Assembly: GCA_001447805.1 (NCBI GenBank)
Contig: CP013099.1
Location: 682,001-746,000, forward strand
From: Candidatus Tenderia electrophaga
GTDB lineage: Bacteria; Pseudomonadota; Gammaproteobacteria; Tenderiales; Tenderiaceae
Direction: 5' to 3'
Length of the DNA: 64,000 nt
The position numbers and the translations under genes are program-made. Below the pieces are notes generated by a model. The model worked only from the letters and a program-made list of their open reading frames with translations. It ran no database searches and was not told the DNA's origin. Below, piece by piece: positions 2,720 to 39,818 of this stretch. Numbering within the stretch: the stretch's first letter is position 1; every line of letters begins with the position of its first letter.

Positions 2720-2759
2720 CGGTCACAGAACTGTCTTTAAAGTTTCATCGGGCTGTCAT
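2720..2759 (+). promoter_or_regulatory. Tandem PHO box (four half-sites) upstream of the plcP-agt pair
   Basis: Four 7-mers resembling the PhoB half-site CTGTCAT occur at an exact 11-bp period: CGGTCAC at 2720, CTGTCTT at 2731, GTTTCAT at 2742 and CTGTCAT at 2753, separated by 4-nt spacers. Matches are 6, 6, 5 and 7 of 7, counting CTGTCAY. A -10-like CATAGT lies 10 nt past the last half-site at 2770-2775, the spacing usual for PhoB-activated promoters. The GTG of the metallophosphoesterase follows at 2809. The 7+4 periodicity is directly visible; activation by phosphate starvation is inferred. Confidence 0.75.
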
Positions 2760-2808
2760 GAACGATTGTCATAGTGGCGCCAGTGAATAACCCGCTGGAG
2801 CAGCGCGA

Positions 2809-3618
2809 GTGTCGCCCATCCATGTCATCCGTCCGCTGAAATACCGCGCCATCTGGATCTCGGATGTGCATCTCGGTTCCAAATACAGCCGCGCGGAGTT
2901 CCTGCTCGACTTCCTCAAGTCCACCGAATGCGAGTATCTCTATCTGGTCGGCGATATCGTCGACCTGTGGGCCATGCGTAAGGCGGTGTACTGGCCGCAG
3001 AGCCGCAACAACGTCATTCGCAGCATTCTCGGCAAGGCCAAGCGCGGCACCAAGATTATCTATATCCCCGGCAATCACGACGCCATGGTGCGCGATTTCG
3101 CCGGGGCGCGCTTCGGCGAGGTTGAAATCAGGGACCACGCCATTCACACCACCGTCGACGGCAAAAAGCTGTTGGTCTTGCACGGCGACGAATTCGACAG
3201 CGTCATCCGCTGCAACGGGCTGATGAGTCTGGTGGGCTGCTGGGGCTACGATGTGTTGATGTGGTTCAACCGTGCCCACAACGGCCTGCGCCGGCTCTTG
3301 AACCTGCCTTACTGGTCGTTGGCCTCGTATCTCAAGCAGCGGGTCAAAAACGCGCGGGACTATATCGAGCGTTTCGAGACCATCGTGGCCAGGGAGGCCA
3401 AACGCCGCGGCGTGGACGGTCTGGTGTGTGGCCATCTGCACCGCCCTGAGCTGACCTATATCGACGAGGTGCTGTACTGCAACGACGGCGACTGGGTGGA
3501 GACCTGCACCGCCCTGGTGGAGCGTCACGACGGCAGCCTGCAGCTGCTGCACTGGGCCGACGAGAAACATACGCTCAAGGATGTGCAGGCCGAGGGAAGA
3601 CTTTCATGCGCATCCTGA
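2809..3618 (+). CDS. plcP: PlcP-like metallophosphoesterase (UDP-2,3-diacylglucosamine diphosphatase family)
   Basis: Calcineurin-like phosphoesterase of 269 aa. Metal-binding motifs in order are SDVHLG (near 19), GDIVD (near 49), GNHD (near 86), HGDEFD (near 125) and CGHLHRPE (near 205), followed by the conserved CNDGDWVE. The YLVGDIVDLW and YWPQS blocks resemble the PlcP branch, phospholipases C that release diacylglycerol from membrane phospholipid during phosphate starvation, more than genuine LpxH. The start is GTG at 2809, with GGAG 8 nt upstream. It overlaps the glycosyltransferase by 13 bp and follows a PHO box. Standard pipelines would call it LpxH-like; the PlcP assignment is inference from sequence flavour, partner and promoter. 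Confidence 0.8.
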   Translation: MSPIHVIRPLKYRAIWISDVHLGSKYSRAEFLLDFLKSTECEYLYLVGDIVDLWAMRKAVYWPQSRNNVIRSILGKAKRGTKIIYIPGNHDAMVRDFAGARFGEVEIRDHAIHTTVDGKKLLVLHGDEFDSVIRCNGLMSLVGCWGYDVLMWFNRAHNGLRRLLNLPYWSLASYLKQRVKNARDYIERFETIVAREAKRRGVDGLVCGHLHRPELTYIDEVLYCNDGDWVETCTALVERHDGSLQLLHWADEKHTLKDVQAEGRLSCAS

Positions 3619-4796
3619 TGCTGTCGGATGTCTATTTCCCGCGCGTCAACGGTGTCTCCACTTCCATCCAGAGCTTTGCCCGCGAGCTGCAACGCCAGGG
3701 GCATTCGGTCACCCTGATCGCCCCGGATTACGGCGCCGACCACAGCGACGAGCTGGAGCTGCTGCGAGTGCCCTCGCGCAAGGTGATCGTCGACCCGGAA
3801 GACCGCATGCTGAAGATGGACTGGGTGCTGCAACGGGTCGATCTGCTGGCCAAATGCGAATACGACCTGATCCATGTCCAGACCCCCTTCGTGGCCCATT
3901 ACCTTGGCCTGAAACTGGCGCGCCAGCTCGGGCTGCCGCTGGCGGAGACCTATCACACCTATTTCGAGGAGTATCTCTACAACTACATTTCCTACCTGCC
4001 CCGCAGCTGGCTGCGTTTTGCCGCGCGGCGTTTTTCCACCGCGCAGTGCAACAGCGTCGACCACGTGGTGGTGCCGTCGGCGCCCATCGAGCAGGCGCTG
4101 CGCCGTTATGGCGTGAAGACGCCCATCACCATCGTGCCCACCGGCCTGGAGCTGGACAGATTCAGCGGCGGCGACGGCGCGCGCTTTCGCGATGCCCACG
4201 GCATCGACCGCGACCGGCCGCTGGCGCTCTATGTCGGCCGCATGGCCCACGAGAAGAATATCGCCTTCCTGTTGCGCGCCATGAAACAGGCCATCCGCGC
4301 CATGCCCGAACTGCTCTTCGTCATGGCCGGCGAAGGCCCGGCTGAGCACTGGGCCTGGCAGTGGGTGGAGCGCGAGGGCTTGAGCGACAATGTGGTCTTC
4401 GTCGGTTACCTGGACCGCGCCACCCAGCTGCTGGACTGCTACCGCGCCGCCGACCTGTTCGTGTTCGCCTCGCGCACCGAGACCCAGGGACTGGTGCTGC
4501 TGGAGGCCATGGCCCTGGGGACGCCGGTGGTCTCCACCGCGGTGCTGGGGACGAAGACGGTATTGTGCGACGGCCGCGGCGTGCTCATCGCAAAGGAGAA
4601 CGAGGACGACTTCAGCGCCAAGGTATTGCAGCTGATGCGCGACGACACGGCACGCCAGACACTGTCGCAGGCGGCGCTGGACTACGTGCAGGATTGGTCC
4701 ATCGGCCGCATGGTGGAGCGCAAGCTCGAGGTCTACGCCCGACTGTTGGCAACCCAGCCGAACGGGCGCGCCGCGATCGGCGATTCCGCCGGCTGA
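3606..4796 (+). CDS. agt: Family 4 glycosyltransferase, Agt-like (diacylglycerol glycosyltransferase candidate)
   Basis: 396-aa GT-B fold glycosyltransferase. The N-terminal half carries the acceptor-side motif FPRVNGVSTS (residues 11-20) and the C-terminal half the GT4 donor-site region with SRTETQGLVLLEAMA (around 292-306). There is no signal peptide or transmembrane helix, so it is probably membrane-peripheral. It overlaps the PlcP-like gene by 13 bp. In PlcP-Agt systems the glycosyltransferase converts the diacylglycerol made by PlcP into glucosyl- or glucuronosyl-diacylglycerol, replacing phospholipids when phosphate is scarce. Sugar donor and product cannot be read from sequence. Other GT4 roles, such as exopolysaccharide or mannoside synthesis, are possible. 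Confidence 0.8.
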   Translation: MRILMLSDVYFPRVNGVSTSIQSFARELQRQGHSVTLIAPDYGADHSDELELLRVPSRKVIVDPEDRMLKMDWVLQRVDLLAKCEYDLIHVQTPFVAHYLGLKLARQLGLPLAETYHTYFEEYLYNYISYLPRSWLRFAARRFSTAQCNSVDHVVVPSAPIEQALRRYGVKTPITIVPTGLELDRFSGGDGARFRDAHGIDRDRPLALYVGRMAHEKNIAFLLRAMKQAIRAMPELLFVMAGEGPAEHWAWQWVEREGLSDNVVFVGYLDRATQLLDCYRAADLFVFASRTETQGLVLLEAMALGTPVVSTAVLGTKTVLCDGRGVLIAKENEDDFSAKVLQLMRDDTARQTLSQAALDYVQDWSIGRMVERKLEVYARLLATQPNGRAAIGDSAG

Positions 4797-4813: not shown

Positions 4814-4853
4814 TCATACAAATTGCATATACTCGAGGCAGGCATTTGTATGA
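4814..4853. repeat. 10-bp perfect inverted repeat abutting the exonuclease RBS
   Basis: TCATACAAAT at 4814-4823 is the exact reverse complement of ATTTGTATGA at 4844-4853, with a 20-nt spacer. A -10-like TATACT (4828-4833) lies in the spacer, and GGAGG, the ribosome-binding site of the next gene, begins at 4854 directly after the right arm. It could be a repressor operator around a promoter or, if transcription starts upstream, an mRNA hairpin beside the RBS. Confidence 0.6.
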
Positions 4854-4863
4854 GGAGGCGGTC

Positions 4864-6273
4864 TTGCTACAACTTCAGTTTCTCGGCGCGGCGCAGGAGG
4901 TTACCGGTTCCTGTTTTCTGCTGCGTGTCGGAGATAAAACGGTACTGGTGGAGTGCGGCCTGATCCAGGGCTCTTTCGAAGACGAAGCGCGTAACCGCAA
5001 TCCCTTTGCCTTTGATGCCGCCGCCCTGGACGCGGTGGTGCTGACCCACTCCCATCTCGATCACTCCGGCCGTCTGCCCCTGCTCGCCAAGGCCGGTTAT
5101 AGCGGACCGATCTACACCCAGCATGCCAGCGCCGATCTGTGCCGTATCCTGCTGAAGGATTCCGGCTACCTCAACGAAAAAGAGGTGGAGTGGGAGAACC
5201 GCAAGCGTCAGCGCAAACGCAAACCGCTGCTGGAGCCGCTCTATACCTTGAAGGAGGCCGAGGCGGTGCTGGATCAGTTTGTGCCCTTGGATTACGGCGT
5301 GGAGATGGAGATCCTGCCCGGTGTGCGGATTCGACTCAATGATGCCGGTCACATTCTCGGTTCCAGCATTGTCGAGCTGTGGGCCAGTCATAAGGGCGTG
5401 ACGCGCAAGCTGGTCTTCAGCGGCGACCTGGGCCATCGCGGCGCGCCCATCCTTAAGGATCCGACCCTGATTGAGGAGGCCGACCTGGTGCTGATGGAAA
5501 GCACCTACGGCGACCGCGCCCATCGACCCTGGGACCAGACCTGGGCCGAGCTGGAGCAGGTGCTGCTCAACGCCCGTCACGACAAGGGCATCGTCATGAT
5601 TCCCGCCTTCGCCGTGGGGCGCACCCAGGAGCTGCTCTACGCCTTCAATCTCAATTACGACAAATGGCAGCTGGATCGTTGGTCCATCTTTCTCGACAGT
5701 CCCATGGCCATCGAGGCCACCGAGGCCTATGCCCGCCACCGTAATCTCTACGATCGTGAAACCCGGGCGCTGCAAAAGCAGAACGGCAATCCCTTCATGC
5801 TGCCCAATCTGCATCTCAGTCGCACGGCGGAAGACTCCATGGCCATCAACCGCATCCGCAGCGGCGCGATCGTCATTGCCGGCAGCGGCATGTGCACGGG
5901 CGGGCGCATCAAACACCATTTCAAACACAACATCTGGCGCCAGAACTGCCATGTGCTTATCGTCGGCTTTCAGGCGCGCGGCACCCTGGGGCGTAAGCTG
6001 GTGGACGGCGCCAAGGAGATCAGCCTGTGGGGCGAAACGGTCAGTGTCGCCGCCCGGGTACATACCATCGGCGGCTTCTCGGCCCATGCCGATTGTCACG
6101 GCCTGCTCGATTGGTATGGTGGCTTCGAGGGGCGTCCGCCCATCGCCCTGGTACATGGTGAGCCGGACCCCATGAACGCATTGGCGCAGCAGGTGCGCGA
6201 GCTGGGTGCCACTAAAGTTTTCATCCCCGAGTCCGGCCAGACACTCGACCTGGTGCATATGAAACCGCTCTGA
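4864..6273 (+). CDS. MBL-fold beta-CASP RNA exonuclease-like metallohydrolase
   Basis: Metallo-beta-lactamase fold protein of 469 aa with beta-CASP and RNA-specificity (RMMBL) regions, the group related to CPSF-73 and RNase J and annotated as RNA-processing exonuclease. Visible are the N-terminal FLGAAQEVTGS, the zinc motif THSHLDHSG, NDAGHILGS, FSGDLG, the beta-CASP block SGMCTGGR and a C-terminal FSAHAD histidine motif. I place the start at TTG 4864 because GGAGG lies 5 nt upstream (4854-4858); a longer TTG start at 4846 would include that RBS in the coding sequence. The stop overlaps the next ATG by one base (TGATG). RNA is the likely substrate. Confidence 0.85.
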   Translation: MLQLQFLGAAQEVTGSCFLLRVGDKTVLVECGLIQGSFEDEARNRNPFAFDAAALDAVVLTHSHLDHSGRLPLLAKAGYSGPIYTQHASADLCRILLKDSGYLNEKEVEWENRKRQRKRKPLLEPLYTLKEAEAVLDQFVPLDYGVEMEILPGVRIRLNDAGHILGSSIVELWASHKGVTRKLVFSGDLGHRGAPILKDPTLIEEADLVLMESTYGDRAHRPWDQTWAELEQVLLNARHDKGIVMIPAFAVGRTQELLYAFNLNYDKWQLDRWSIFLDSPMAIEATEAYARHRNLYDRETRALQKQNGNPFMLPNLHLSRTAEDSMAINRIRSGAIVIAGSGMCTGGRIKHHFKHNIWRQNCHVLIVGFQARGTLGRKLVDGAKEISLWGETVSVAARVHTIGGFSAHADCHGLLDWYGGFEGRPPIALVHGEPDPMNALAQQVRELGATKVFIPESGQTLDLVHMKPL

Positions 6274-33782: not shown

Positions 33783-33886
33783 GACGACCTCTCCTGGTTC
33801 AGATTCGGAGCCGTCATTGTGCGGCGCGACGCTTACAGTTTTATGACGAGCGGATGGCGCTCGTATGACAGGCGGCTGCGCCGGCG

Positions 33887-34481: not shown

Positions 34482-35894
34482 ATGGCAAAGAAATATGATG
34501 CGGGCGTTAAAGAGTACCGCGATGTGTACTGGACACCGGACTATGTCCCCCTGGATACCGACTTGTTGGCCTGTTTTAAGGTCACCCCGCAGGAAGGTGT
34601 GCCCAATGACGAGGCCGCCGCAGCCGTTGCCGCCGAATCATCCACCGGCACCTGGAGTACCGTATGGTCGGAATTGCTGACCGATATGGAGTTCTATAAA
34701 GGTCGCGCCTATCGTATTGAAGACGTGCCCGGCGACAAAGACGCCTTTTATGCCTTTATTGCCTATCCCATCGATCTGTTCGAAGAAGGTTCCATCGTCA
34801 ACGTGCTGACCTCCCTGGTCGGTAACGTATTCGGCTTCAAGGCGGTCAAGCATCTGCGCCTGGAAGACATCCGTTTCCCCATCGCCTTCGTCAAGACCTG
34901 CCTGGGTCCGCCCAGCGGCATCCAGGTGGAGCGCGATAAGCTTAACAAATACGGCCGTCCGCTGCTGGGCGCTACCATTAAACCGAAGCTGGGTCTGTCG
35001 GCCAAGAACTACGGCCGTGCCGTGTACGAGTGTCTGCGCGGCGGTCTGGACCTGACCAAGGACGATGAGAACGTCAACTCCCAGCCCTTCATGCGCTGGC
35101 AAAACCGTTTCGAATTCGTCGCCGAGGCGGTACAAAAGGCGCAGCAGGAAACCGGCGAGACCAAGGGGCATTACCTCAACGTCACCGCCAACACGCCGGA
35201 AGACATGTACGAGCGCGCTGAGTTCGCCAAGGAGCTGGGTCAGCCGGTCATCATGCATGACTTCCTCACCGGCGGCTTCACCGCCAACAGCGGTCTGGCC
35301 AAATGGTGCCGCAAGAGCGGCCTGTTGTTGCACATCCACCGTGCCATGCATGCGGTCATCGACCGTCATCCCAAGCACGGCATCCACTTCCGCGTGCTGG
35401 CCAAGTGCCTGCGACTGTCCGGTGGCGACCACCTGCACACCGGGACCGTCGTCGGCAAGCTGGAAGGCGACCGCGCCTCCACCATGGGTTACGTGGATCA
35501 GCTGCGTGAGTCCTTCGTCCCCGAAGACCGCAGCCGCGGCATCTTCTTCGACCAGGACTGGGGCTCCATGCCCGGCGTCTTCGCCGTCGCCTCCGGCGGT
35601 ATTCACGTCTGGCACATGCCCGCCCTGGTCACCATCTTCGGTGATGACTCCATCCTGCAGTTCGGTGGGGGTACGCAGGGCCACCCCTGGGGTAACGCCG
35701 CCGGCGCCGCCGCCAACCGTGTCGCCCTCGAGGCCTGTGTCAAGGCGCGTAATCAAGGCCGCGACCTGGAACGCGAATCGCGCGAAATCCTGGAAGGTGC
35801 CGCCCAGCACAGTCCCGAGCTGGCCATGGCCATGGAGACCTGGAAAGAGATCAAGTTCGAATTCGAAACCGTGGACAAACTCGATATCGGCTGA
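34482..35894 (+). CDS. cbbL: RuBisCO large subunit, form IA
   Basis: Fixes CO2 onto ribulose-1,5-bisphosphate. 470 aa, the usual form IA length. Active-site blocks are [11 protein letters not shown] (K167/K169), the carbamylated Lys in LTKDDEN (K193), HDFLTGGF and loop-6 KLEGDR (near 326). AGGAG lies 9 nt before the ATG. It leads a plus-strand operon with cbbS and the carboxysome genes, so it is the carboxysomal enzyme; the form IA clade is supported by this context. A putative CbbR operator lies upstream. Confidence 0.98.
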
Positions 35895-36337: not shown

Positions 36338-38236
36338 ATGGCCCAGCAAACATTGTCAGGCCGAGCCGCCTCTCTGGCGCGCCGGCAGGCCCAGGTGCAC
36401 GGCAAAGCCGCGTTACCGCCCAAGGGCAGCGGCGCCAAGGCGTCCGCGCCGCAGGCCGCTGCGAGTCGGCCGGCCGCCAGTGCCGGCGGTGACAGCGGTC
36501 GCGATGCCGCCCGCGCCCGCCGCCGCGCCATGGCCACCCACGGCAAGGCCGCGGCTCAATCCGGTGATCGCCAGCGCATGGTGGACACCATGCGTCATGC
36601 GCGTCAGCAGACCCAGGGGGATAAGGGTAAAGACTGCGGCTGTGGTTGCGGCGGCAGCGGCGAGTGCGACAAGCAGGCCGCGGCGGCATCCCCGGGTGAT
36701 TCCCAGCGTAGCCCCCAGAGTAAGTCGCAGAGTAAGCCGCTGAGCACCAGCGCTGCGGCGGCCAAACCGATGCCGCGGCGGCGTGAAGTCAAACCGGTAA
36801 CGGCCGCCAATGCCGGGCGCCTGAATGCCCGAATGCGGCGCCTGGCCCTGGCCCGCCACGGTAAGAACGGCGTCGACGCGACGGCCAAGGGGATGAACTC
36901 GGCGCAGCTGGTCAAGCAGCAAAATCCGGACATTTCCGGACGCGAGCTGGCCCGCAGCGTGCGTGCCCAGCGTGCCTGCAACGGCGCTCAGGGTAAGACC
37001 CGGTCGGCGCCGGTGGGCAGGCAGCGTCCGCCGCGTCCGGCGGATGACGTCACCGGTACCCACGTCGGTCACAGCACCAAGACCACCGGCAGTGAGACCG
37101 GCTTATGCCGCAGCATCACCGGCACCGAGTACTTCTCTGGCGCGGTGTTCAGCGAATTCTGCCAGGGCCAGCCGCCCCAGGCGCCGCGCAAGGTCGATGT
37201 CACCACCACGCTGCGCGGCGGCCAGGTGACCAGCGGCGGCCGGGTGGGGCGCGCGTCCCACGTTACCGGCGATGAGCGCGGCAGCTGTCGCAACGTCACC
37301 GGTAACGAATACGTAGGGCGCGAGCAGTATGACGATTTCTGTCCGTCGCGGCCCGAGCCGGGCAGTGCCAAGGTCAGCCATTCGCAGACCAGTCGCGGCC
37401 AGATCGTGTCCGGCTCCAAACCGGCCCGCTCGGAGCGGGTGACCGGTGACGAGGCGGGCACCTGCAAGGCGGTCACCGGCACGCCCTATGCCGGCGCCGA
37501 GCAGTATAAAGACTACTGTGCGCCGGACCAGGCCCGCTTGGCCGAGACCCGCAGCCAGCGGCGTCCCGCCATGGCCGGCCGCGACATCACCGGCCTGCAG
37601 CCCGGACTGGGCGGCCTCACCGGCGCCGAGAAGGGTGCCTGCGAACCGGTCAGCGGTACCGGCTATATCGGTGCCGCCGAGCGTCAGGCGGTATGTGGTA
37701 CGGCCCCGGCCCAGCCGGGCGAGGCCGATTTTCCGCAGTCCTTGGCCGCGGCCCCGTGGGGCGCCTTCAGCGTAGTCGCCCCCGGCCATGCCACGCAGGG
37801 CGCGGCCGAGCCGCATGGCGTTACCGGTACCCGCTATGAACAGGGGCGTATCAGCGGCACCTTCTCCCTGGCCGAGGGCAAGATCACCGGCACCGAGCAG
37901 TTCCGTTTCGGCGAACGCCAGGGCCGTGCCGCCGAGGCCGCTCAGGCTGTCCCGGCGGCGGCGTCGCAAAGTGCGCGCGGCATTACCGGCGAGGGCATCG
38001 ATACCGGTCTCAAGATCACCGGTGACGATTGGGACCGCGGTGATCGGGTCACCGGCACCGAAGGCATGTCGGCGGTGAAGCGGAATCCCACCCGGCGCGG
38101 CCCTGTCAGTGCCATGCCGGCGCATGCGCCCAAGCGTAACGAGGATCTGCCTCAAAGCGAACTGCTGGTCACCGGCGGCAGTGGTAATAGCGACAAAGGG
38201 GCGGCGGTGACTGTGTCCGGCGGTGCCCGGGGATAG
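36338..38236 (+). CDS. csoS2: Carboxysome scaffold protein CsoS2 (short form)
   Basis: 632-aa intrinsically disordered scaffold that links RuBisCO to the shell. Four N-terminal basic helical repeats of the type ARRQAQVHGK lie near 8-23, 58-72, 163-176 and 201-217. A Cys cluster is at 100-110. The middle region has three clear VTG-rich repeats with Cys pairs (238-275, 296-335, 354-394) and a fourth divergent one (416-453). The C-terminal domain (about 465-632) anchors to the shell and ends VTVSGGARG. CsoS2 of Halothiobacillus is longer, with six middle repeats, so this is a reduced form. Confidence 0.95.
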   Translation: MAQQTLSGRAASLARRQAQVHGKAALPPKGSGAKASAPQAAASRPAASAGGDSGRDAARARRRAMATHGKAAAQSGDRQRMVDTMRHARQQTQGDKGKDCGCGCGGSGECDKQAAAASPGDSQRSPQSKSQSKPLSTSAAAAKPMPRRREVKPVTAANAGRLNARMRRLALARHGKNGVDATAKGMNSAQLVKQQNPDISGRELARSVRAQRACNGAQGKTRSAPVGRQRPPRPADDVTGTHVGHSTKTTGSETGLCRSITGTEYFSGAVFSEFCQGQPPQAPRKVDVTTTLRGGQVTSGGRVGRASHVTGDERGSCRNVTGNEYVGREQYDDFCPSRPEPGSAKVSHSQTSRGQIVSGSKPARSERVTGDEAGTCKAVTGTPYAGAEQYKDYCAPDQARLAETRSQRRPAMAGRDITGLQPGLGGLTGAEKGACEPVSGTGYIGAAERQAVCGTAPAQPGEADFPQSLAAAPWGAFSVVAPGHATQGAAEPHGVTGTRYEQGRISGTFSLAEGKITGTEQFRFGERQGRAAEAAQAVPAAASQSARGITGEGIDTGLKITGDDWDRGDRVTGTEGMSAVKRNPTRRGPVSAMPAHAPKRNEDLPQSELLVTGGSGNSDKGAAVTVSGGARG

Positions 38237-38309: not shown

Positions 38310-39818
38310 ATGAAGACGATGTTCAATACACGAGCTAAAGTCAGACGCACCCTGCCCGGGCCGCCACCACGGCGTCCGCTGGCGGCCGCCTCTGGTGCCG
38401 GCGTCGGTATCGGGCACCATCCGTTGGTGCGCGGCGATGAAAACGCCCGCCTGTATCAATACGAACAGGCGGTCAAGCAGGCCTTCGCCGGCATCGAAGC
38501 GGTACTGCGTCAGCTCGCTGCCTGGCAACACGAGTCCGATTTCGTCGGCCGTGCCCAGGGTCACGCCCGCGCCACGCTGGGGTTTGAGCTGCCGGCCGAG
38601 CTGTTGCAAGACACCTGGATCCAAGCCTTGGATACCGGCCGCCTGTATGCCTGGTGCGTGTTTGAGACCTTTCGCCGCATGTCGGCGGAGTTCTTTGAAC
38701 AACGGCCGCTGGCAGTGGAGGGCGCGGCGAGCTTCCACGCGTTTTTGCAGCAGTGCGGCTTTCATACCTTGGATATATCGCCCTGCGCCGACGGCCGCCT
38801 GGCCCATGTCATCCGCTATGTGCTGCGCCTGCCGCACGAGCCGGTGCGGCGTAAGTCCTATGCCGGCGCCCTGTTCGATGTGGAGGACAGCCTCGAGAAG
38901 TGGGTGGAGACCGAGATGCTGCGCCAGCGCGAAGGCCGGCCCAACGCCGCCGACGCGCCGACACGTTATTTGAAGGTGGCGGTGTATCACCACAGTTCCA
39001 CGCGGCCCGATCAGGAAGGCTGCGCGGCCCACGGCAGCGACACCCGGCGTGCGGCCCAGGGGGCGCTGGAACGGTTGCAGGCGTTTCGCCAGGGCGTGGA
39101 AAACAGCTTTTGCTGCGGCGCCTCCATTGACCTGCTGCTGATCGGCGTCGACACCGACACGGATGCCATCCGCCTGCATCTGCCGGATGCGGACGGCGCC
39201 ATGGATGTGGATGACTACATCGATGCCAACGAGCTTTATCACGCCACCGCCAATGCCGCCATGGGCGACGCGGAGGCCACCGTGCAGGATCATCTGCGCC
39301 GTCACTGCAGCGCGGCGAATATGACGGTGCCGGCGCCCGGCATGTTGCGTCTGGCGGCGCGCCTGCTGTGCGCCAATCTGGCACAGATCGATTACGTGCG
39401 CCGCTATCACGGCGGCCGCTATGCCGACATCGGCCATCAGGAGCGTTTCATCGGCATGGGCATCGGCTTTGAAGAAGTGCAGTTGCGCAATCTGACGTAT
39501 TTCGCCTATCTGCGCACGGTGGAAGAAGGTGCCCAGGATCTGGACGTGGGGATCAAGATCTTCAACGGCTTGAATGTGCGTCGCGGTCTGCCCATACCGG
39601 TGGTGATCCGCTACGACTACCACGGCCAGGTGCCGGGTGCCCGGGCGCGGGCCGAGGCGCGTTGCCAGCAACTCGAAGCGGCCTTGCAGCAGCGCTATCA
39701 CGCGTACGTCGAGCAGGGTCTGTTGCATACCCTGTTGATGGTGCGCGACTGCCATGCCGGCGCGTCGGCCGAGGTGGTGGGGGGTTCCCTGCTGTGTAGT
39801 GATCAAGAGGTGCACTGA
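38310..39818 (+). CDS. csoSCA: Carboxysomal carbonic anhydrase CsoSCA
   Basis: 502-aa epsilon-type (beta-like) carbonic anhydrase (also csoS3) that turns bicarbonate into CO2 inside the carboxysome. Likely zinc ligands are C159 and C238 with H227 or H228; the catalytic Asp161-Arg163 pair lies in CADGRLAH. The ~45-residue basic, Pro-rich N-terminus (TRAKVRRTLPGPPPRRP) resembles the RuBisCO-binding tail of the Halothiobacillus enzyme. It overlaps csoS4A by one base (TGATG). Confidence 0.95.
   Translation: MKTMFNTRAKVRRTLPGPPPRRPLAAASGAGVGIGHHPLVRGDENARLYQYEQAVKQAFAGIEAVLRQLAAWQHESDFVGRAQGHARATLGFELPAELLQDTWIQALDTGRLYAWCVFETFRRMSAEFFEQRPLAVEGAASFHAFLQQCGFHTLDISPCADGRLAHVIRYVLRLPHEPVRRKSYAGALFDVEDSLEKWVETEMLRQREGRPNAADAPTRYLKVAVYHHSSTRPDQEGCAAHGSDTRRAAQGALERLQAFRQGVENSFCCGASIDLLLIGVDTDTDAIRLHLPDADGAMDVDDYIDANELYHATANAAMGDAEATVQDHLRRHCSAANMTVPAPGMLRLAARLLCANLAQIDYVRRYHGGRYADIGHQERFIGMGIGFEEVQLRNLTYFAYLRTVEEGAQDLDVGIKIFNGLNVRRGLPIPVVIRYDYHGQVPGARARAEARCQQLEAALQQRYHAYVEQGLLHTLLMVRDCHAGASAEVVGGSLLCSDQEVH

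Follow-up and report, generated by a model that had tools for sequence, protein, structure and literature searches.

Upstream of two adjoining genes in Candidatus Tenderia electrophaga, one for a metallophosphoesterase and the other for a GT4 glycosyltransferase, lies a row of repeats that resembles a Pho box. The locus raises the question of whether the pair exchanges phospholipids for glycolipids, as PlcP and Agt do under phosphate starvation, and of whether its glycosyltransferase is an Agt enzyme. The features are listed in Table 1 by their positions in the window, which is the whole stretch of 64,000 nucleotides that was analysed. The preferred reading, with a probability of roughly 0.8, is that they constitute a PhoB-controlled two-gene operon for phospholipid-to-glycolipid remodelling with a diacylglycerol (DAG) glycosyltransferase that does not belong to the Agt clade. 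It is this partner that sets the operon apart as a variant of the known PlcP-Agt kind.

Table 1. Features of the plcP-GT4 locus and their positions in the window
Feature	Position	Strand	Remarks
Pho-box array, four CTGTCAT-like half-sites with an 11-bp period	2720..2759	+	23/28; conserved in congener
-10-like hexamer CATAGT	2770-2775	+	From sequence and congener comparison; presumed function
plcP, PlcP-type metallophosphoesterase (phospholipase C), 269 aa, GTG start	2809..3618	+	
GT4 glycosyltransferase, non-Agt LafA/MGS-related clade, 396 aa, putative diacylglycerol glycosyltransferase	3606..4796	+	
Overlap of plcP and GT4 gene, 13 bp	3606..3618	+	Not conserved in congener

The promoter region and the gene pair

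The initial annotation described four half-sites at an exact 11-bp period, and this description is accurate. The half-sites are CGGTCAC at position 2720 (5/7 matches to CTGTCAT), CTGTCTT at 2731 (6/7), GTTTCAT at 2742 (5/7) and CTGTCAT at 2753 (7/7), and each step between them is exactly 11 bp. Their summed score of 23/28 is the highest that the window contains. When the 64-kb sequence was shuffled 200 times under a first-order Markov model and both strands were scanned, the top four-site scores were 16-20, never above 20. The array belongs to the 5' leader of plcP, with 49 bp between its end and the start codon. In a Pho regulon promoter, two or more CTGTCAT half-sites are spaced 11 bp apart and followed, about 10 bp further on, by a -10 box, and this arrangement is found here: the hexamer follows the array after 10 bp, the classical spacing of a PhoB promoter.

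A congener (G003), whose PlcP fragments are 88 and 91% identical to the PlcP of the window, has the array with the same four steps (GTGTCAC/TTGTCTT/GCTTCAC/CTGTCAC). The gap behind it is also 10 bp and is followed by TATAGT, a better -10 hexamer than the CATAGT of the window. Across plcP loci the conservation of the array is genuine, though partial: of 105 loci, 44% reach p<=0.05. The genome-wide PhoB motif scan proposed in the initial annotation warns against relying on the motif by itself. The 18-bp Pho box with at most 3 mismatches has 209 matches in the genome compared to 99 for a reversed control, and most of the better single matches found by this pattern search lie inside genes. The Pho site is credible through its periodicity, position and conservation, and not through its match to the consensus.

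The genome contains phoB (C1:2299737; 346 bits against a curated cut-off of 296). A Pho-like array that scores 20/28 over four steps precedes this gene; its best pair lies 65 bp before the start of the gene as matched, and the PhoB site of the species therefore resembles the consensus used. One point against the preferred reading is the weakness of the Pho site preceding the genome's pstS-like gene. A three-step 11-bp repeat, TTGTAAT/CTGTAAT/CTGGCAC (G000:C1:2576905-2576933), is found before the gene of a PhoB-like OmpR-family regulator at 2576991.

The GTG start of plcP is supported by the congener, because an ATG is found there at the same codon. The metallophosphoesterase and GT4 genes and their 13-bp overlap are exactly as first described in the window, but the overlap is lost in the congener, where a short spacer separates the genes; it was rejected as a conserved feature. 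The gene behind the glycosyltransferase (about 4864-6273) encodes a beta-CASP family protein. It has its own TATACT-like element, conserved in both genomes, so the operon probably comprises just plcP and the GT4 gene. An inverted repeat, CATACAAAT (4815-4823) and ATTTGTATG (4844-4852), occupies positions 4815-4852 of the window upstream of the beta-CASP gene. The TATACT-like element lies between its arms, and the repeat is partly conserved in the congener.

The first gene encodes PlcP

The assignment of the first gene to PlcP holds; the protein is an addition to an already known family, and its predicted activity is the hydrolysis of phospholipids to DAG. Over 254 aa it shares 46% identity with a Sinorhizobium meliloti protein, which we take to be SMc00171 because its gene adjoins those of an AHL synthase and a regulator of the LuxR type. 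The window protein is 47% identical over 245 aa to a Pseudomonas aeruginosa protein, presumably PA3219, as judged by its position beside Agt1 and an adenylate cyclase. In the record examined, the P. aeruginosa plcP-agt1 segment is on a plasmid. The metal-site motifs of metallophosphoesterases (DxH, GDxxD, GNHD, HGD and GHxH) are invariant in an alignment of 14 rows. In a 37-row IQ-TREE phylogeny the LpxH rows, including the genome's own LpxH, split from the PlcP-type rows with 100/100 support, and the 34 rows that contain the window protein also include the characterised PlcPs.

The glycosyltransferase lies outside the Agt clade

The initial annotation named the second gene Agt, and this name is not supported. 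The window glycosyltransferase is 30% identical to Agt1 of P. aeruginosa. The Agt rows are 45-63% identical to one another and the window-type rows 49-65%, but between the two sets identity is 27.5-34%. With Agt1 as the query, the Agt-like partners of other plcP loci score mostly 270-370 bits, and the window enzyme 87. The Agt rows (98/93) and the window clade (96/99) are separate in the GT4 tree, and the window clade joins the LafA-type proteins with a support of 91/98.

The catalytic residues tell the same two groups apart. The Agt clade has a His-Asp catalytic dyad with the motif FPSxTDTFG (PMC8231724). The catalytic acid is the Asp of TDT(F/Y)G in the Agt clade and the Glu of TETQG in the window clade and in LafA. 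In the window enzyme His117 is present, and Glu292, in FASRTETQG, takes the place of Asp. This residue is diagnostic of the clade because an Asp-to-Glu change cost the Pelagibacter Agt enzyme more than 90% of its activity (PMC8231724). The separate clade, the identity to Agt1 and the catalytic Glu speak against the name Agt for the partner. The Agt1 query found no Agt-clade gene in this genome; its best match was the window glycosyltransferase itself with 84 bits, and the next reached 34.

The window enzyme is the genome's best match to the monoglucosyl-DAG synthase model NF049988 (132 bits compared to 61 for the next gene). This is far below the curated cut-off of the model, 400 bits, so homology does not decide between acceptors and donors; LafA itself scores only 277. 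The enzyme is 33% identical over 361 aa to a Listeria GT4 protein and is closer to it than to Agt1 in a direct comparison. The gene of this protein lies in the order fba, GT4, GT4, YbhN, rho, from which we take it to be lmo2555/LafA. Lmo2555 (LafA) has been reported as a glycolipid gene (PMC2764115). The partner is thus characterised as a non-Agt, LafA/MGS-related GT4 enzyme and a putative DAG glycosyltransferase. A third group of glycosyltransferases near plcP (L093, L099 and L038, from Chromatium okenii, Thiocapsa imhoffii and G045) forms a supported clade of its own and scores 113-125 bits to Agt1.

Association of the glycosyltransferase clade with plcP

The association of the two genes was examined in 370 gammaproteobacterial genomes, drawn evenly from the GTDB class. 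The limit of the window clade was set at the score gap between 318 and 219 bits. PlcP genes were found in 106 genomes, the glycosyltransferase clade in 42, and both in 33. Thus plcP is present in 33 of the 42 genomes with the clade (the other 9 have no plcP match) compared to 73 of the 328 others, an odds ratio of 12.8 (p 1e-12). Kinship was treated up to the family level: plcP occurs in 24 of the 28 families with the glycosyltransferase (p about 1e-7, whatever reasonable total is assumed). The two genes are no more than 10 kb apart in 16 pairs, which show at least three arrangements, namely plcP and the glycosyltransferase in the same direction, plcP-agt with the glycosyltransferase facing, and a divergent pair in Thiodictyon.

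Some clade members that are not placed behind plcP have four-step Pho arrays of their own, as at L188 (22/28), L170 (21), L181 (20) and L168 (18), scores that none of 200 shuffles reached. The PAP2-phosphatase signature SRxxLGLHYPxDV is found in a small gene adjoining the window-type glycosyltransferase at 12 of 29 clade loci (L162, L163, L165, L166, L169, L171, L173, L178, L179, L180, L183 and L188), and both signature genes that were examined were confirmed as PF01569. For two of the PAP2-adjacent loci the genome gave no plcP match, and therefore the PAP2 protein may supply DAG in place of PlcP.

Closer to the window, 6 further genomes of the genus were searched, and 5 of them, drafts 77-95% complete, gave no plcP match. 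Thiohalobacter thiocyanaticus has the same plcP-glycosyltransferase arrangement, with a 20/28 array. The nearest relatives of the window plcP (L075 and L035) are in plcP-agt loci with a window-type glycosyltransferase facing. The simplest history would combine a loss of agt in the window lineage with a move of the second glycosyltransferase to its place behind plcP. In its widest form, the proposal is that the LafA/MGS-related family with a catalytic Glu is a second, uncharacterised family of DAG glycosyltransferases, that in Gammaproteobacteria it serves PlcP and also PAP2-type phosphatases as a general partner under Pho regulation, and that it replaced Agt directly behind plcP in the lineage of this carboxysome-bearing autotroph. 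The chances of this wider proposal appear evenly balanced.

Proposed pathway and alternative explanations

On phosphate starvation, phosphorylated PhoB would bind the four-repeat array and activate transcription from the -10 box. PlcP would then hydrolyse phospholipids to DAG and a phospho-headgroup, the phosphate of which could be reused. The GT4 enzyme is predicted to add a sugar from a UDP-sugar to DAG, resulting in a phosphorus-free glycolipid; the sugar would more likely be glucose than glucuronic acid. The array and its conservation, the PlcP clade, the separate lpxH, the separate glycosyltransferase clade, and the co-occurrence and linkage with plcP are read directly from the DNA. The lipid-remodelling operon is real, and it is probably functional and Pho-regulated.

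It is very improbable, and already largely refuted, that the first gene encodes an LpxH-like UDP-diacylglucosamine hydrolase and that the pair takes part in lipid A or LPS synthesis. The protein has distant sequence similarity to LpxH structures, and public pipelines name its relatives 'UDP-2,3-diacylglucosamine diphosphatase'. This label is misleading, as first suspected, since the S. meliloti and P. aeruginosa PlcPs identified by context (L155, CP090106.1, and L156, NZ_CP137508.1) carry it too. The LpxH equivalog models give the window protein 44 bits (TIGR01854, cut-off 190) and 48 bits (PRK05340, cut-off 134), a genuine lpxH (305 bits) is found elsewhere in the genome, and the split from LpxH in the tree is clear. 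The tree and the search for a separate lpxH had been suggested at the outset as checks, and both, together with the model cut-offs, agree with the PlcP reading. The Pho array and the DAG-glycosyltransferase-like neighbour also speak against LpxH. Another alternative keeps PlcP as described and gives the glycosyltransferase a different acceptor, either phosphatidylglycerol, as in a GlcNAc-PG synthase, or a polysaccharide intermediate. The scores leave some room for this, because the GlcN-PG synthase model gives the window enzyme 121 bits compared to 133 for the DAG model, and at L188 it is slightly the higher of the two (131 compared to 121). However, a product that still contained phosphorus would be hard to reconcile with Pho control, and the glycosyltransferase is linked to two possible DAG producers, PlcP and PAP2, and is closer to LafA than to Agt1. 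A different acceptor is therefore unlikely.

A weightier alternative concerns P. aeruginosa Agt2 (PA0842), which makes glucuronosyl-DAG (GADG) (PMC8528852). If the window clade were the family of Agt2, the product would be GADG and the partner would already have been characterised as Agt. Many genomes, represented by the loci L162, L163, L165, L170, L174, L175 and L075, have both an Agt-clade gene and a window-type glycosyltransferase beside plcP, and P. aeruginosa likewise has agt1 and agt2. PA0842 is 35% identical to the Phaeobacter Agt (PMC8528852), which is less than the identities within the Agt clade and just above those between the clades. However, PA3218 itself is only 41% identical to the Phaeobacter Agt, so the percentage is not decisive, and PA0842 was judged here by this published figure. 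The plasmid and phage collections searched for Agt2 gave no Pseudomonas match; synteny of the high-identity plcP regions with the PA3219 region is absent. That the clade is the Agt2 family is possible, but we would not expect it. If PA0842 does belong to the window clade, the partner is already known and its product probably acidic; a position of PA0842 in the Agt clade would support the new partner family.

Significance and autotrophy

Lipid remodelling is sought in genomes and metagenomes by means of plcP and agt. With a second glycosyltransferase partner, organisms that lack agt can carry the pathway, and carbon-fixing sulfur bacteria are among them. The LpxH label that databases give to PlcPs hides the pathway. 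The glycosyltransferase family can be expressed, and its product decides whether neutral or acidic glycolipids take the place of phospholipids.

The initial annotation laid stress on a carboxysome-bearing autotroph that uses the lipid switch. An alpha-carboxysome is indeed encoded in the window, with the RuBisCO large subunit at 34482-35894, CsoS2 at 36338-38236 and CsoSCA at 38310-39818. However, plcP is not unique among autotrophs, being found also in Thiohalobacter thiocyanaticus, Thiobacillus, Nitrosomonas, Halochromatium, Thiocapsa, Chromatium and Thiodictyon, and this angle is weaker than was stated. A search of the open-access literature found no specific study of PlcP remodelling in a chemolithoautotroph, the closest being on methanotrophs (PMC9239053). 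A second Pho-like array of four repeats, CTGTCATACGAGCGCCATCCGCTCGTCATAAAACTGTAAG, is present at 33832-33871 on the minus strand. It scores 21/28, above every shuffle, and is intergenic, 50 bp upstream of a 68-aa open reading frame (33782-33576, minus strand) beside the carboxysome operon. This reading frame has no Pfam match.

Comparison with known systems

The PlcP of S. meliloti (SMc00171) has the same metallophosphoesterase motifs as the window protein, but its gene has no glycosyltransferase beside it. The plcP-agt genes of Methylosinus trichosporium OB3b and other methanotrophs provide a case of PlcP-based remodelling in one-carbon specialists (PMC9239053). The OB3b partner is an Agt-clade enzyme. 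In some type Ia methanotrophs the gene beside plcP encodes another putative DAG glycosyltransferase, which has been likened to that of Bacillus subtilis (PMC9239053). LafA (lmo2555) of Listeria monocytogenes and the alpha-monoglucosyl-DAG synthases (NF049988) share the HEKN and TETQG motifs and a full-length model match with the window glycosyltransferase; unlike it, they are not linked to plcP or to Pho control, and the window enzyme, which is below the model cut-off, belongs to a sister clade. PlcP-Agt1 of P. aeruginosa (PA3219-PA3218; PMC8528852) is, like the window pair, a Pho-controlled pair of PlcP and GT4 enzyme encoded by overlapping genes. The two PlcPs are 47% identical, whereas the glycosyltransferases belong to different clades and differ in the acid of the catalytic motif.
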